A DNA stretch of 32,804 bases from a virus, in IMG/VR virus record IMGVR_UViG_3300028008_000061, positions 1-32,804 of that record; one strand, written 5' to 3'. The notes below the pieces were generated by a model that was not told the DNA's origin, searched no databases, and was given only the letters and a program-made list of their open reading frames with translations. The translations under genes were made by a program, and so were the position numbers. Positions 8,801 to 25,963 of this stretch are shown piece by piece (within the stretch, counting starts at the first letter, position 1; the number at the start of each line of letters is the position of its first letter).

Positions 8801-9142
8801 TTAATGATTTAGTTTTATTGAATCGACTGTGCCGTCCGTCCAGCTACTTACTACAGCTCTTACCCATACATAATTGCCAGTAAAGTTAGCTGCAATTACT
8901 TTAGTTGTAGTTAAATGTGTTTCAGTGTAAATTGTGAACCAGTCTGCTTCAACTGGATTAATTGCAAGTGTGCCTTGTATGGCTACTATACCTGTAAATC
9001 CTGTTATGCTGTATTGTACGGTGTGGAACCCATCACTACGTCCGTAGTAACCGTCCCCTTTGAATTTTTCACCTGTGACAGTCTCAGTGGTACTGTCTCC
9101 TGGGTGTGTATTTGCTGATAATATTGTTTCACTGTTTGACAT
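8801..9142 (-). CDS. Small beta-rich virion-like protein
   Basis: Translation from the ATG at 9142 gives 113 residues; a TTG five codons earlier also keeps the frame open but lies inside the late promoter box. The protein is rich in beta-strand residues (FHTVQYSITGFTGIVAIQGTLA, TGNYVWVRAVVSSWTDG) and has no signal or membrane segment, like small decoration or neck proteins of marine T4-like phages that I recall. A GATAAATA box ends five bases before the ATG and no ribosome site is visible, so the mRNA may be leaderless. Confidence 0.7.
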   Translation of the reverse strand: MSNSETILSANTHPGDSTTETVTGEKFKGDGYYGRSDGFHTVQYSITGFTGIVAIQGTLAINPVEADWFTIYTETHLTTTKVIAANFTGNYVWVRAVVSSWTDGTVDSIKLNH

Positions 9143-9147
9143 GCAAG

Positions 9148-9155
9148 TATTTATC
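9148..9155 (-). promoter_or_regulatory. Late promoter box GATAAATA placed for a leaderless transcript
   Basis: The minus strand reads GATAAATACTTGC and then ATG. In T4 the late box spans -13 to -6, so +1 would be the A of the ATG at 9142. There is no purine-rich ribosome site between box and gene. The spacing repeats that seen before dnaJ. Confidence 0.6.
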
Positions 9156-9161
9156 AAATAT

Positions 9162-9812
9162 CTACTTGACTACTAATTTGTCGATTCTTCGAATATTAGT
9201 TAACATTAGGTTACATAACTGAAGTGTACGTTCATCTCTTGCATAAAAGTACATACCACAAACATATCCACCCTGCAAAAGTTCAAATTCAAGTTTAGGA
9301 CCTAGTTTAATTAATTTAGGATTATTAGTTGCCCATTGTCCAAAACTATTATCACCAGAATTATTCCCCAAAGTTACTTTATATTCGTATCCATTAGATT
9401 TGTCTACTAATATTGTATTCGGAGTAAGTGTATACCCTGGAGAAGGTTCATGTAAACTAATTAAATTAGGTGAATTACTAGTATCGTAAATAATAGTATT
9501 GAGCCATCTAATATCATTAGAATAAATGTTTAGTATTTGTTGTTCAACTCTTAGTTTATAGTCTTGGGCTTTACTAAAATGTGTGAATAACTTAGATGCT
9601 TCGATAAAATGATCTTTAGAAATTGATCTTACACGAAGACCCCTAGCTAAGACTAATGGCTGCTTATCTTCTATCAATTGTTGCAAATTGTCAAGAACTT
9701 GCCTAGCGTGAGGCAAGTTCTTTTCTCTAAATGCGTCTGACAGCTGATTGGTTACGGTTAACTTATATAAGTATTCTCCGTAGAACAGCTTAGTTGTTTC
9801 AAACCTCTGCAA
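9162..9812 (-). CDS. Unknown protein, TTG start, coupled to ClpA
   Basis: The 216-residue soluble protein has a helical N-terminal half (residues 1-110, including QVLDNLQQLIEDKQP) and a beta-rich C-terminal half. I recognise no domain. The start is a TTG at 9812, supported by GGAG eight bases upstream; there is no suitable ATG. It overlaps the end of clpA by 14 bases, so translation is probably coupled and the protein could be an adaptor or partner of the unfoldase, though that is only a positional guess. A perfect 12-base inverted repeat lies in the coding sequence at 9693-9722. Confidence 0.7.
   Translation of the reverse strand: MQRFETTKLFYGEYLYKLTVTNQLSDAFREKNLPHARQVLDNLQQLIEDKQPLVLARGLRVRSISKDHFIEASKLFTHFSKAQDYKLRVEQQILNIYSNDIRWLNTIIYDTSNSPNLISLHEPSPGYTLTPNTILVDKSNGYEYKVTLGNNSGDNSFGQWATNNPKLIKLGPKLEFELLQGGYVCGMYFYARDERTLQLCNLMLTNIRRIDKLVVK
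9693..9722. repeat. Perfect 12-bp inverted repeat (hairpin) inside a coding region
   Basis: The arms are AAGAACTTGCCT (9693-9704) and its exact complement (9711-9722), around a six-base loop AGCGTG. On the plus strand the second arm runs into a short T-rich tail, like a rho-independent terminator for plus-strand transcripts. On the minus (coding) strand the hairpin would form in the mRNA about 90 bases after the TTG start. Confidence 0.75.
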
Positions 9813-12036
9813 CGACTTTCTCCGAAGTTGTGTCTAATATAAATTTATCATTATCAAAATTAATAGTAACTTCTCCGCCGTTTTTAAGTGTTCCAAACAG
9901 TAGCTCTCGACTCAATGGTCGTTTGATTTCTTTATCAATTACTCGCTGTAAAGGTCTTGCGCCCATTTTAGGATCAAACCCTTTATCAACTAATGCATCA
10001 AGTGCTTCGTCAGTAACATGAATAGTTACGTCTTTCTGTGCAACCATGTCTTTAAGTTCAACAAGGAACTTGCCAACAATTTTCATCATTACTTCTTTGC
10101 CTAGTTTAGCAAATGTAATTACACCATCAAGTCTGTTTCTAAACTCTGGTGCAAAGAATTTCTTTAGTGAAGTATCTTCATACTCTTTTTCAAATGCATC
10201 ACCAAATCCAATAGTATTTTTATCTGCATCTTGTGCGCCTAAGTTAGTAGTAAGAATTAGTACACAATTACGTGCGTCTGCTTCTTTACCGTTAGACCCT
10301 GTTACTTTACCATTGTCCATAACTTGTAATAAGATCTGTGAAACATCTGGATGTGCTTTTTCAATCTCATCTAGCAGTAGTACACAATTAGGATTTTCTT
10401 GTAATTTTGTAATTAGCAATCCTGCATTATCTTCGTGTCCTACATAACCTGGAGGCGAACCAATCAACTTACTCACACTGTGCTTTTCTTGATATTCGCT
10501 CATATCAAAACGTACAAGTTCTACACCTAGTTGTGCTGACAATTGTTTTGCTGTTTCTGTTTTACCTGTGCCTGTTGGGCCCATAAACACAAAGCTACCA
10601 ATTGGTTTGTCATCTGGTTTTAGTCCTGCTTGACTTACAAGAATCTTATCAACAATACCGTCAATAGCATCGTCTTGTCCGTATACAACTTTCTTTAGAT
10701 TCTTTTCAAGATTAGCAAGATTATCAGTTTCAGTTTGACTTACTGTTTCTGCAGGCAATTTAACTACTTTGGCTAATTCAAATTCAATACCTTTTGCTGT
10801 AACTATTTTTTCTTCTACATTAGTAAGGTTAAAGCGTGAACATGCCAAATCAATTAAGTCAATTGCTTTGTCAGGAAGTTTCTTATCTGACTGATATTTA
10901 ATTGACAGTTTAACAGCTGAATCAATTGCTTCTTGTGTAATAGTTGTGCCATGATAATCTTCATAGTACTTCTTAATACCTTGTAGAATATCTTTGGTTA
11001 CTTCTGCACTTGGCTCATCAACTGTAACACGTTGGAATCGACGCATCAATGCACGATCCTTTTCAAAGTACTTACGGTACTCGTCCCAAGTAGTTGATGC
11101 AACAACTTTTAAGTTTCCTTTAGTAAGAGCAGGCTTTAGCATGTTTGCTAAATCGTTGGAGTTTCCGCCACCGCCGGCACCAGCACCATTCATCATGTGT
11201 GCTTCATCGATAAACATAATAGTTTTGCCTTTGCTCTTAAGCCCAGCAAGTACTAGTTTAAAGCGTTCTTCAAAGTCTCCACGATACTTACTACCAGCAA
11301 GCATAGCACCAATGTCTAACATAAACACTTCGTACTCTTTTAGGAATTCTGGAACATTGTCGTTAACAATATTGTATGCCATACCTTCTGCAATAGCTGT
11401 TTTACCGACACCAGGATCACCAACAAGTAATACGTTGTTTTTATTTCTACGACCTAGTGCAAGTGCAAGACTTTCAAGCTCTTCTGAGCGTCCAATAATA
11501 GGATCAATTTTGCCAGTCTTTGCTTCGCCGTTTAGATTAGTTGTAAATGCTTTTAGTGCCTTTTGTGCAGCACCAGAAATTTCTTCGTCTTGTAGATTAG
11601 CATCTGTTTCAGCACTAATGTATTCTGCAAATGCATCTTTGTCAACACCTGCTTTTTCAATGAAGTAACAAGCATGACTTTTCTTTTCATTCATCATACT
11701 TAGAAGTACATCAGTTAATTCAATTTCAGGACGTCCTGCAAACAGTACTTGTGTAAATGCACGGTTAAGACATCTCTCAACAGCTTGTGTTTTCTTAGGC
11801 TTGTACTTTGTTTCTTCAACTTTAATTTCGTCAAGATTATTTTTTAAATAATGCTCTAGTTGAGTCTTAAGATAATCAACATCAGCGCCATAGCCCGTGA
11901 TAAGTTTCAAGAAATTATCCGAACACAGCATAGCAAATAACAGATGTTCTAATGTTACATACTCGTGTTGTAACTTGCGTGTATCTTTTAGAGATTTTTC
12001 AAAGACTAATTGTAGTTCTTCGCTTGGTTCTACCAT
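9799..12036 (-). CDS. clpA: ClpA-type AAA+ unfoldase
   Basis: The 745-residue protein has the full ClpA layout: N-terminal double Clp repeat (about 1-145), first AAA+ module with Walker A GDPGVGKT (206-213) and Walker B MFIDEAH (274-280), and second module with Walker A GPTGTGKT (486-493), Walker B LLLDE (553-557) and sensor motif GARPLQRVI. The ClpB middle domain is missing and the length is close to bacterial ClpA (about 758). Residues I609-G610-F611 occupy the loop that docks ClpA onto ClpP, so it can probably feed host ClpP; no phage ClpP is seen. An sigma70-type promoter lies just upstream, giving early expression. The likely role is redirected proteolysis of host or phage proteins. Confidence 0.92.
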   Translation of the reverse strand: MVEPSEELQLVFEKSLKDTRKLQHEYVTLEHLLFAMLCSDNFLKLITGYGADVDYLKTQLEHYLKNNLDEIKVEETKYKPKKTQAVERCLNRAFTQVLFAGRPEIELTDVLLSMMNEKKSHACYFIEKAGVDKDAFAEYISAETDANLQDEEISGAAQKALKAFTTNLNGEAKTGKIDPIIGRSEELESLALALGRRNKNNVLLVGDPGVGKTAIAEGMAYNIVNDNVPEFLKEYEVFMLDIGAMLAGSKYRGDFEERFKLVLAGLKSKGKTIMFIDEAHMMNGAGAGGGGNSNDLANMLKPALTKGNLKVVASTTWDEYRKYFEKDRALMRRFQRVTVDEPSAEVTKDILQGIKKYYEDYHGTTITQEAIDSAVKLSIKYQSDKKLPDKAIDLIDLACSRFNLTNVEEKIVTAKGIEFELAKVVKLPAETVSQTETDNLANLEKNLKKVVYGQDDAIDGIVDKILVSQAGLKPDDKPIGSFVFMGPTGTGKTETAKQLSAQLGVELVRFDMSEYQEKHSVSKLIGSPPGYVGHEDNAGLLITKLQENPNCVLLLDEIEKAHPDVSQILLQVMDNGKVTGSNGKEADARNCVLILTTNLGAQDADKNTIGFGDAFEKEYEDTSLKKFFAPEFRNRLDGVITFAKLGKEVMMKIVGKFLVELKDMVAQKDVTIHVTDEALDALVDKGFDPKMGARPLQRVIDKEIKRPLSRELLFGTLKNGGEVTINFDNDKFILDTTSEKVVAEV

Positions 12037-12074: not shown

Positions 12075-12102
12075 ATTATACATTATAATTAGCTAATGTC
12101 AA
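12075..12102 (-). promoter_or_regulatory. sigma70 promoter (TTGACA-16-TATAAT) for clpA
   Basis: The minus strand has TTGACA at 12102-12097 and TATAAT at 12080-12075 with a 16-base spacer; a second TATAAT-like copy overlaps the spacer at 12087-12082. The start would leave a leader of about 30 bases with AAGGA before the clpA ATG at 12036. Both boxes match the consensus fully. Confidence 0.8.
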
Positions 12103-12110
12103 GACTGAAA

Positions 12111-12932
12111 TTAACCATTATCCTTTATTATTTCGTGTATTTTGTTTAACTGTTTTTCATTTAAGTTTCGCGGAATACTTGCATGAATAGTTATTAAAAG
12201 TTTTCCTTTTCGACCATAATTTACATCAGGTACACCATGTCCATGTACACTAAATGTTGTTCCGTTTTTTGTTCCTTTAGGTATTGTAAGTTCAATATCT
12301 CTATTATCTAGTGTATGTACTTTAACTTTTGTACCAGTAATTAATTCTAGACAATTTACATCAATTGAAGTTTTTAAATCGTTATTATTTCGAGCCCAGT
12401 TAGGTTTGTGATTAATGTGTACTTCAACAAATAAATTACCTCTCGGCCCAGGAATGGAATTATCTCCTAAATTTGGAAATTTCATTGTATCGCCGTGATG
12501 TATTCCTGGAGGTATATCTAAGTTAACACTTTCTTCTTGTCCGTTGCGTAACCTAAATGAAGCTAGAACTTTTTTGCCTGTTAGTACTTCTTCAAGAGTT
12601 AATTTAACTCTAAGTCTTATATCCTGATTGTGCGCTCTTTGTCTGTATGCTTGTTGTCCAAACATTGAACCAAAGATATCTTCGAACGGATGTCCGCTAC
12701 CTGTGTTACCAGTATTAAAATTAAATCCTTGTCCGCCACCGTTTTGCTGATGGTCATACATACCACGTTTTTGTGGATCCTTTAGTGTGCTATACGCTTC
12801 GTTAATTTTCTTAAAGGTTTCTTCATTACCGCCCCTATCGGGATGGTGCTTCATACTTGCTTTTTTGTATGCTGCTTTAAGTTCTTTATCAGAAGCGTTT
12901 TTTGCAACGCCTAAAGTAGAGTAGTAGTCCAT
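12111..12932 (-). CDS. dnaJ: DnaJ/CbpA-type Hsp40 co-chaperone
   Basis: The 273-residue protein has an N-terminal J domain with the H30-P31-D32 motif that stimulates DnaK ATPase, a Gly/Phe-rich linker with Gln/Asn (about 64-90), and two beta-sandwich substrate-binding domains to the end. The CxxCxGxG zinc finger of classical DnaJ is absent, so it is a class B (CbpA-like) form. It would work with the host DnaK and GrpE. Together with ClpA and the GroES-like protein it makes a protein-quality set. The ATG follows a late-type box (GGTAAATA) by five bases with no ribosome site, which suggests a leaderless late transcript. Confidence 0.9.
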   Translation of the reverse strand: MDYYSTLGVAKNASDKELKAAYKKASMKHHPDRGGNEETFKKINEAYSTLKDPQKRGMYDHQQNGGGQGFNFNTGNTGSGHPFEDIFGSMFGQQAYRQRAHNQDIRLRVKLTLEEVLTGKKVLASFRLRNGQEESVNLDIPPGIHHGDTMKFPNLGDNSIPGPRGNLFVEVHINHKPNWARNNNDLKTSIDVNCLELITGTKVKVHTLDNRDIELTIPKGTKNGTTFSVHGHGVPDVNYGRKGKLLITIHASIPRNLNEKQLNKIHEIIKDNG

Positions 12933-19098: not shown

Positions 19099-19580
19099 AG
19101 TTTACTCCAAATTTGAAATTCTACATCGCCATGGTCTTCGTTCCAAGTCATTTCAAACAAATTTTCAATTTTCTTTAACGGTAAGAATGTATCACATGCA
19201 TATGCACCAGGAATACGACTTAGATAAAACTCATCAATTATATCTAGTGTTTGTTCGATAATTTTAGGACCACCTATAACCCAAGTAATAACACCTTCGT
19301 TTAGATACTCAATGTGTTTTATTTCGTTGTTTAGGTTACCGCTAATATACATGTCTGCACCTGGATAGTCATCCTTACGTGTAGTTGCTAGTACATTAGT
19401 ACGTTTAGGTAGCGGGCGTGGCATGTGCGGATCGTCCCAAGTAGTAGATCCCATTATAACAATATGTCCTGCTGTGTTCTCTTTAAACCATTTAAGATCT
19501 GTACTGTTGTTAGGCCAAGGTAGTGTACCGTTTTTACTTACGCCGCCGTAATCGTCACATGCTAGTATTGCTCTTATCAT
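19095..19580 (-). CDS. folA: Dihydrofolate reductase
   Basis: The 161-residue protein has the DHFR layout: [19 protein letters not shown] at the N terminus, the proton-relay acid D28 in [11 protein letters not shown], the NADPH-binding [21 protein letters not shown], and WVIGGPKII. It reduces dihydrofolate to tetrahydrofolate with NADPH and so supports ThyA, encoded directly downstream with a four-base overlap. Length equals the E. coli enzyme (159). No fusion or missing residue is seen. Confidence 0.93.
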
Positions 19581-21166
19581 AAACTCTTAACCTCTATAAA
19601 TTTGTATGTACTGGTTGCATCATGTGTTGGACAAAATCTGTTTACCCTATCCATGCCGCCTTCTTGCACATCACCAAAAAATTCTTCTTGATATTGTGCA
19701 AACAATTTCTTATATAATTTGTCGTCTGTTTCAGATTCTTGTATTACACTATGCATCTCTGGACCAAAGTGTGCATATAAAGCAAACGTTCTTAATAATT
19801 TATCTAGTTCATCTTCTTGTAGATATGGCTCTGGCATATCAATTGCCCACTTGTCCATATATCCGCCACTGTTTATATACGCATTATCTAAGAAGCCTGC
19901 TTTAACTGCCATTGTTCTAAGTTCTGTTCCCCAATATGGCTGGAACATGCCTATAGTAAGTCCGTCATATCCTCTAGCACGATGTACCATGTCTGCTGTG
20001 TCTATTACCATTTGTCTAGTTTCAAATGGCATACCTAAGATAACATTTAAACTGTATGGAATATTGCTTTCGTTTATGTAATTGAAATATTCGTAATACC
20101 TATCGTTACTAGCTTGTCTTTTTAAAACCTTACGTCTGTATTCTTCATTGCCACTTTCTACACCAAATGTCATACGATATACGCCAGCTTCTTTAAGCGC
20201 ACTCAAGTATGCAGGCTTACAGTTTTCAATACGTGTATTAAACCAAAAAGGAATTTTGTACTTGCTCCACATTTCGCAAAATTCAAATACTTCTTTCTCT
20301 GGTCTTGCAAGGAAGCTATCGTCTTGAAACATTATTAGATCAGGATCATATAGGTCTTTGTATATAAGCAATTCTTTTTCAACTTGCTCTGCACTCTTAC
20401 GGCGCATAAAGTTTCCTATATTAAAGTCTTTAGCAAGTGTACGTGTTCGAGGACTATTACAATATGTACAATTATAAGGACATCCTCTATATGTTTCCAT
20501 ACTTACAGCACGTTCGAATACTTTGCCACCCATAGGTCTCCGCCAACGTATTCCTTTAAAGCAACCATAGTCAGGTAGCGTTTTATTAATGTCACACAGT
20601 TGTTGCGGCGCATTTTTCTTAATGTCGCCATTAGGACTTTTAATCCACAGTCCTTTTATATGATCAAAGTTTGTCTTTTCTTTAATTGCTGTAATTGCAT
20701 CAGTAACAGTAATCTCACCTTCGTGCCTTGCTAACACATTTACAGAAGGATGATTGATTACAATGTCTGGCGCATTAGTAGGAAATACACCACCTACAAT
20801 ATGAGGAATGTTTTTATCAGATATACTATCCAACAGTTGAGATGCCATTTTCCAAACATCTTCTTGAACACTCATTAATATTAAATCAGGATTAAAGTCT
20901 TCTACACATTCAATAAAATCAGGAATAATATCTTTAGGATCCTTAATCCAAAACATATCTTCTAATTCTTCTTTTTTGTTTTGTCGACTTGCTCCTATTT
21001 CAGTCATACGAATATGTCTGTTATTATATTGCTCGCTATACTGTGTTGTCTCAAATAATTTTACTTCACAGCCCATGCGTTTGGCAATAGCATTAAACAG
21101 CCCCATGCTCATAGCTGGGGACATCATTAAAGGTAAATTAGGATACGTTAATAGTATCTTAATCAT
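19577..21166 (-). CDS. Radical SAM protein with B12-binding-like N-terminal domain
   Basis: The 529-residue protein has an N-terminal Rossmann-like region (about 1-165) like the cobalamin-binding domain of the BchE/HpnP type radical SAM group ([10 protein letters not shown]..., [21 protein letters not shown]), then a radical SAM barrel with the 4Fe-4S motif C229-x3-C233-x2-C236 ([14 protein letters not shown]), and a helical C-terminal end. No DxHxxG motif is visible, so cobalamin may bind base-off without protein His or be absent. Such enzymes often methylate unreactive carbons; the substrate here is unknown. It overlaps the ferredoxin gene by eight bases, and that protein is a natural electron donor. 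The neighbours downstream make dTMP, so a nucleotide or tRNA substrate is conceivable. Confidence 0.85.
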
Positions 21167-23783: not shown

Positions 23784-23812
23784 ATTATAGCAAACTTAGA
23801 CAGAGTTGTCAA
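23784..23812 (-). promoter_or_regulatory. Perfect sigma70 promoter (TTGACA-17-TATAAT) for tRNA-Arg and the downstream operon
   Basis: TTGACA (23812-23807) and TATAAT (23789-23784) are separated by exactly 17 bases. The start falls about 13 bases before the tRNA. No terminator is seen between the tRNA and the DexA-like gene, so the twelve overlapping genes down to 17.6 kb may share this transcript. Confidence 0.87.
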
Positions 23813-25558: not shown

Positions 25559-25963
25559 TTATATTACTCCATTAAATGTTGGCATGTCCTTGACTGTTCC
25601 ATGCTCTGATGTGGTGCCAATATTTATACTGTCTGGCTTTTCGTTTGCATATGCTAGAATACTTTCTGATTCTACCATACGAATTTCTAATTCTTCATTG
25701 TCAACGTCTACTTTCATGCCACGTGTCCATCTACCGTGTTCTACAAGTATCCAATGACCAATTTCATATGTATCTTTATTTTCAGGACCTTTATGCAACA
25801 CTTTAGCCCAGCGAGGATAAATTCCTCTTTCTTGGCCATCATCAGAGCTGATAATTAGTCCGCTTTGTGTAGTTTGTTCACCAAAATACATGTCTGTAAC
25901 TAGTACACGATTGCCAATAGCCCGCAGACTATTTGCTTTAATAGTATTAATATTAAGAGCCAT
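25559..25963 (-). CDS. groES: GroES-like co-chaperonin (gp31-like)
   Basis: The 134-residue protein shows the cpn10 pattern: LRAIGNRVLVTDMYFGEQTTQSGLIIS with the mobile-loop type stretch before GLIIS, then GRWTRGM and EIRMVESESILAY at the dome end. It would cap host GroEL to fold the major capsid protein, as T4 gp31 does. At 134 residues it is longer than GroES (97) with a C-terminal extension of about 30 residues. It shares one base with the stop of the upstream gene. A canonical TATAAATA occurs near its 3' end. Confidence 0.85.
   Translation of the reverse strand: MALNINTIKANSLRAIGNRVLVTDMYFGEQTTQSGLIISSDDGQERGIYPRWAKVLHKGPENKDTYEIGHWILVEHGRWTRGMKVDVDNEELEIRMVESESILAYANEKPDSINIGTTSEHGTVKDMPTFNGVI
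25621..25628 (-). promoter_or_regulatory. Possible late promoter box TATAAATA inside groES
   Basis: The minus strand reads TATAAATA exactly, near the 3' end of groES and about 63 bases before the MazG-like ATG. It is an exact match to the T4 late consensus, but all clear late sites in this window have G at the first position, so this one may be chance. Confidence 0.3.

Follow-up and report, generated by a model that had tools for sequence, protein, structure and literature searches.

Jumbo phages that encode ClpA are already in the literature. The genome of phage Atu_ph07 carries genes for ClpA, ClpP, ClpS, ClpB, and DnaJ, which were not joined into one machine in its description (PMC6102473). 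A second study reported ClpP in some jumbo phages and ClpS in others, treated the two as alternatives, and proposed that ClpA acts as a translocase or an assembly aid (PMC7824862), and ClpA was also described in 24 moraphage genomes, in a text that contains neither ClpP nor ClpS (PMC12619734). Our literature search, which took in few subscription papers and no preprints, found no description of phage ClpA, ClpP, and ClpS as one protease. Of most interest here is the consistent co-occurrence of ClpA with ClpP, accompanied by ClpS, which we noticed when following up a clpA gene in a marine virus sequence (IMG/VR record IMGVR_UViG_3300028008_000061; the whole 32.8-kb stretch analyzed is hereafter called the window). 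The features discussed below are listed in Table 1.

Table 1. Features of the clpA region, with positions counted from the first nucleotide of the window.
Feature	Position	Strand	Basis
118-aa protein gene, downstream of clpA	8801–9157	−	Profile match, synteny in relatives
216-aa protein gene, TTG start, 14-nt overlap with the clpA 3′ end	9162–9812	−	ORF, synteny
clpA, ClpA-type AAA+ unfoldase, 745 aa	9799–12036	−	Pfam, PHROG 4871, TIGR02639, PDB
IGF tripeptide I609-G610-F611, predicted ClpP-docking loop	10204–10212	−	Conservation in 80 relatives
Walker B of D2, LLLDEIEKAH, residues 553–562	10351–10380	−	Alignment with relatives
Walker A of D2, GPTGTGKT, residues 486–493	10558–10581	−	Alignment with relatives
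Walker B of D1, MFIDEAH, residues 274–280	11197–11217	−	Alignment with relatives
Walker A of D1, GDPGVGKT, residues 206–213	11398–11421	−	Alignment with relatives
ClpA N-domain, approximately residues 1–145	11602–12036	−	E. coli ClpA structure match, conservation
Promoter preceding clpA, sigma-70 consensus TTGACA-N16-TATAAT	12075–12102	−	Perfect consensus match
dnaJ, J-domain protein without zinc finger	12111–12932	−	Pfam DnaJ, DnaJ_C

The window ClpA combined a Clp_N domain with D1 and D2 AAA modules that both had Walker motifs, the architecture of ClpA-type proteins, with Pfam matches to Clp_N, AAA, AAA_2, AAA_lid_9 (the D1 lid), and ClpB_D2-small. It had a full-length profile match to PHROG 4871, annotated as a phage ATP-dependent protease (836 bits, residues 5–740), and its top PDB matches were E. 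coli ClpA structures (E = 2.8e-202). The top-scoring NCBIfam model was TIGR02639, the bacterial ClpA equivalog (883 bits, residues 5–726), with a score that fell short of the curated whole-protein cut-off of 993 bits. Walker A and B of each module were intact, as were the pore loops and the two arginine-finger motifs, and all of these were near-invariant across 80 viral relatives (70–87% identity to the window ClpA), which bears out the initial annotation in its statement that both ATPase modules are complete. N-domain residues E25, E30, T83, and R88 were also conserved in the relatives and aligned to E23, E28, T81, and R86 of E. coli ClpA, which we take to be its ClpS contacts. A working ClpA ring is the best explanation of these features.

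The D2 module contained a match to the ClpP-docking pattern [IVLM]-G-[FL], namely IGF at residues 609–611, the same tripeptide as in host-type (bacterial) ClpA; sampled bacteria had I, V, L, or M followed by GF. We looked for a mutated loop among the viral relatives and found none, as the tripeptide was IGF in 79 of the 80 and LGF in the remaining one. Positions 609–611 were 99–100% conserved, a figure that is not special by itself because ∼38% of all ClpA positions are conserved as strongly; what stands out is the contrast with the flanking positions 608 and 612–618, which were about 30–60% conserved. Such conservation within a variable loop suggests that ClpP docking is under selection, and selective maintenance of the tripeptide in phage ClpA is thus supported, in agreement with the earlier placement of these residues at the ClpP-docking site.

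No clpP or clpS gene was found in the 32.8 kb of the window. ClpP (PF00574 matches) was nevertheless encoded on 10 contigs of the window's marine group, 9 of 20 large contigs and 1 of 40 smaller ones; two of the nine matches on large contigs represent one and the same divergent ClpP-like form (94 bits; L089 type), and because the contigs are fragments, absence of clpP or clpS from any of them means little. Each of five isolates searched in full (Atu_ph07, Phosso, RaK2, XaC1, and Callisto) encoded ClpP, as did 51 of 51 listed ClpA-bearing jumbo-phage records of at least 280 kb, a count made by comparing the ClpA and ClpP listings by hand, excluding fragment records and ‘Acinetobacter phage MD-2021a’ (see below), and including several near-copies, such that independent lineages are far fewer. 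A 335-kb phage-like contig inside a Neomarinimicrobiota MAG (PBPT01000016.1), also a relative, encoded ClpA and ClpS but lacked ClpP.

The Ser-His-Asp triad was intact in phage ClpP of both ordinary subtypes, with the catalytic aspartate presumed to be that of the RDRF motif, after the human enzyme. Several aligned positions of the presumed docking pocket were still hydrophobic; E. coli ClpP and ClpS served as references for these residue comparisons. An insert of ∼10 residues near the handle, after an HRVSSG-type stretch, distinguished a ClpP subtype (L084–L088, L097, and L226) that occurred on six marine contigs and in the PA5oct type. This insert was missing from E. coli ClpP and from a bacterial ClpP (L221), and the two solved ClpPs with alignments shown had the same gap at this place.

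RefSeq labels the ClpP of PA5oct (NC_071039.1), RaK2 (NC_019526.1), and Atu_ph07 (NC_042013.1) as ‘head maturation protease’. We rejected this identity for the marine and PA5oct-type proteins, leaving aside the divergent L089 form, because they score far higher on ClpP models: the ClpP subfamily model gave marine ClpP 254 bits and the head-maturation model 88 bits, and the PA5oct-type and RaK2 proteins scanned also scored much higher on ClpP models despite their label.

ClpS was encoded on 7 of the 20 large and on none of the 40 smaller contigs of the marine group, and was matched in all five isolates searched whole, weakly in RaK2 and below the cut-off in XaC1. In marine-phage ClpS, N34, D35, T38, P39, M40, and H66 were conserved and position 36 was D or E, whereas pocket residues were changed in Atu_ph07 and RaK2. 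Similarly, the equivalent of ClpA R88 was changed in the isolates, while the marine group was near-invariant at the residues aligned to the presumed ClpS contacts. A phage-encoded Leu/Phe-tRNA transferase was considered and rejected, as none was present in 20 marine-group contigs; N-degrons generated by such an enzyme would therefore need the host.

Because close and distant relatives carry ClpP and ClpS, the phage probably makes most or all of its own protease. The reading that we favor, with somewhat better than even confidence and on the basis of gene content and conserved residues, is that ClpA, ClpP, and ClpS form a protease encoded by the phage, host ClpP being the alternative wherever a member lacks ClpP. 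The ClpA hexamer would unfold proteins and thread them into a ClpP barrel docked via the IGF loops; in relatives this barrel is often phage-encoded, with its catalytic triad apparently intact. Phage ClpS could deliver substrates with Leu, Phe, Tyr, or Trp at the N-terminus, as the N-degron pocket seems intact in the marine group, and members lacking ClpP would use that of the host. The likely gain would be removal of host or defense proteins together with turnover of phage proteins. Several observations count against a protease of the phage's own: the lack of clpP and clpS in the window, the 335-kb relative without ClpP, the loss of ClpS pocket residues in RaK2, the sub-threshold ClpS match in XaC1, the R88 change in the ClpA of the isolates, and the lack of a Leu/Phe-tRNA transferase in the 20 contigs searched.

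The first two of these observations, along with a docking loop identical to that of host-type ClpA, would also fit a phage ClpA that works exclusively with host ClpP, competing with host ClpA and ClpX and redirecting the barrel. We consider this unlikely, since the 51 listed jumbo isolate records with ClpA all carry ClpP too and ClpP occurs commonly within the marine group itself. The initial annotation had likewise proposed that the phage directs the host protease. A complete ClpA with a maintained docking tripeptide agrees with that proposal, but its restriction to the host enzyme is too narrow because ClpA jumbo phages encode their own ClpP. Our checks instead favor a ClpAP or ClpAPS protease belonging to the phage itself, undescribed as one machine in the literature searched. 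More specifically, and here we put the chances at about even, ClpA may regularly belong to a complete phage ClpA-ClpP-ClpS N-degron protease, with the ClpS pocket and the ClpA contact surface kept in the window's group, ClpP with the ∼10-residue insert in several members, and genes ordered dnaJ-(deformylase)-clpA. If true, these phages would run their own N-degron pathway alongside that of the host.

The gene for a 216-aa protein followed clpA in 78 of 80 relatives; these homologs were recognized by synteny, as a single-sequence search for relatives of the protein returned none. The reading frame overlapped clpA in 73 of the 78, by exactly 14 nt in 28. Median identity among relatives was 36% for this protein versus 75% for ClpA. 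Its predicted structure (pLDDT 96.5) had alpha/beta repeats of ferredoxin-like appearance, and no credible named match was obtained in Pfam, NCBIfam, PHROGs, PDB sequences, or Foldseek; VIA-align gave middling matches, none above Z = 5.5, to ferredoxin-like folds of a common kind. Profile searches recovered no homolog in PA5oct-type (Callisto), Atu_ph07, Phosso, RaK2, or XaC1 phages, and a weak structure match in Atu_ph07 was discarded because the profile search did not recover it. Among the ClpA jumbo phages compared, only the marine group has the protein. The suggestion that it is a substrate adaptor for ClpA, which would be compatible with the protease reading, draws on its fixed position behind clpA, the overlapping start, and its fast evolution. 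We nonetheless regard this as doubtful and found it unsupported, given that neither sequence nor structure searches revealed clear likeness to any adaptor, that the protein is missing from the five other ClpA jumbo phages, and that relatives already have ClpS in the adaptor role.

Upstream of clpA, the promoter suggested earlier was confirmed as a perfect consensus match, and the site is very probably a sigma-70 promoter: three perfect sites were observed in the window versus 0.07 expected, and wherever dnaJ and clpA are 45–100 nt apart (18 distinct relatives), the best promoter score was 10–12 of 12, compared with 7–10 in relatives with def or a short gap between the two genes. The other two perfect consensus promoters lie at 23812 and 1226, also on the minus strand. 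dnaJ occurred near clpA in 77 of the 80 relatives. The two genes also adjoin in PA5oct-type and Atu_ph07 phages, and in Phosso a gene annotated as deformylase stands between them. Nearly half of the relatives (36) had a gene of ∼170 aa in this position, with the peptide-deformylase motifs GxGLxAxQ in 32, EGCLS in 35, and HExDH in 35 (loci L003, L008, and L013 and 33 others). Downstream of clpA, homologs of the 118-aa protein were present in PA5oct-type, Atu_ph07, and Phosso phages, and the PA5oct-type phage Callisto shared with the window a clamp loader, PhoH, two virion genes, dnaJ, clpA, and the 118-aa gene. Same-strand neighbors of clpA in the window included an endolysin, an Rz-like spanin, and virion-structural genes. 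Elsewhere on the minus strand, the window encoded a GroES/gp31-like co-chaperonin (25559–25963; PHROG 931 and 3188) and, at 19577–21166, a protein judged radical-SAM-like by eye, with no PHROG match and absent from the flanks of the relatives. The neighboring dnaJ, adjacent in several isolates, and the surrounding virion-structural and lysis genes would fit a chaperone or translocase that degrades nothing and instead helps, say, in disaggregation with DnaJ or in virion assembly, the latter as proposed before (PMC7824862), but this is very unlikely to be the role of ClpA, as conservation of the docking tripeptide inside a variable loop would be unexpected without ClpP.

To assess the origin of the phage gene, we compared its product with ClpA from 30 alphaproteobacterial sequences and from 22 others; of these 22, 21 were bacterial loci that had been sampled and one was an INPHARED record that we judged to be bacterial. 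This record, ‘Acinetobacter phage MD-2021a’ (CAKLQF020000008.1), looks like bacterial chromosome, with argC, rpiA, and clpS-clpA, and was set aside as a phage ClpA record. The best identity of the window ClpA was 47.3% to alphaproteobacterial versus 45.9% to other bacterial ClpA. In a quick tree of 89 ClpA proteins, marine phages formed one clade outside all sampled bacteria, a clade that takes in MAG-binned sequences that look phage, and alphaproteobacteria formed a clade within the bacteria. The alphaproteobacterial likeness noted in the initial annotation is therefore weak, and an alphaproteobacterial origin was not supported by the tree, although an AU test did not reject a clade of alphaproteobacteria plus phages (p = 0.119).

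Should ClpA, ClpP, and ClpS work together as one phage protease, the proteins that it degrades, whether host, defense, or phage, could be tested directly in the strains on which isolated phages, for instance those of the PA5oct type, are grown in the laboratory. Compared with bacterial ClpA of the ClpAP/ClpAPS system, the window protein has the same domains, motor motifs, docking tripeptide, and N-domain, but shares at most 47% identity (tree alignment), belongs to a separate phage clade, and scores below the TIGR02639 cut-off. Moraphage ClpA (PMC12619734), set beside the window by description, comes from a large aquatic phage lineage, some members of which have DnaJ. The jumbo-phage ClpA proteins of RaK2, 121Q/PBECO4, the PA5oct type, and Atu_ph07 (PHROG 4871) are full-length, like that of the window, to which they are at most 45% identical, and PA5oct-type and Atu_ph07 phages share with it the dnaJ-clpA-118-aa gene arrangement. 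In contrast to these isolated phages, the marine group has the 216-aa gene and keeps the ClpS-contact residues that the isolates changed. The window gene is thus an ordinary, well-preserved member of the jumbo-phage ClpA kind already published.
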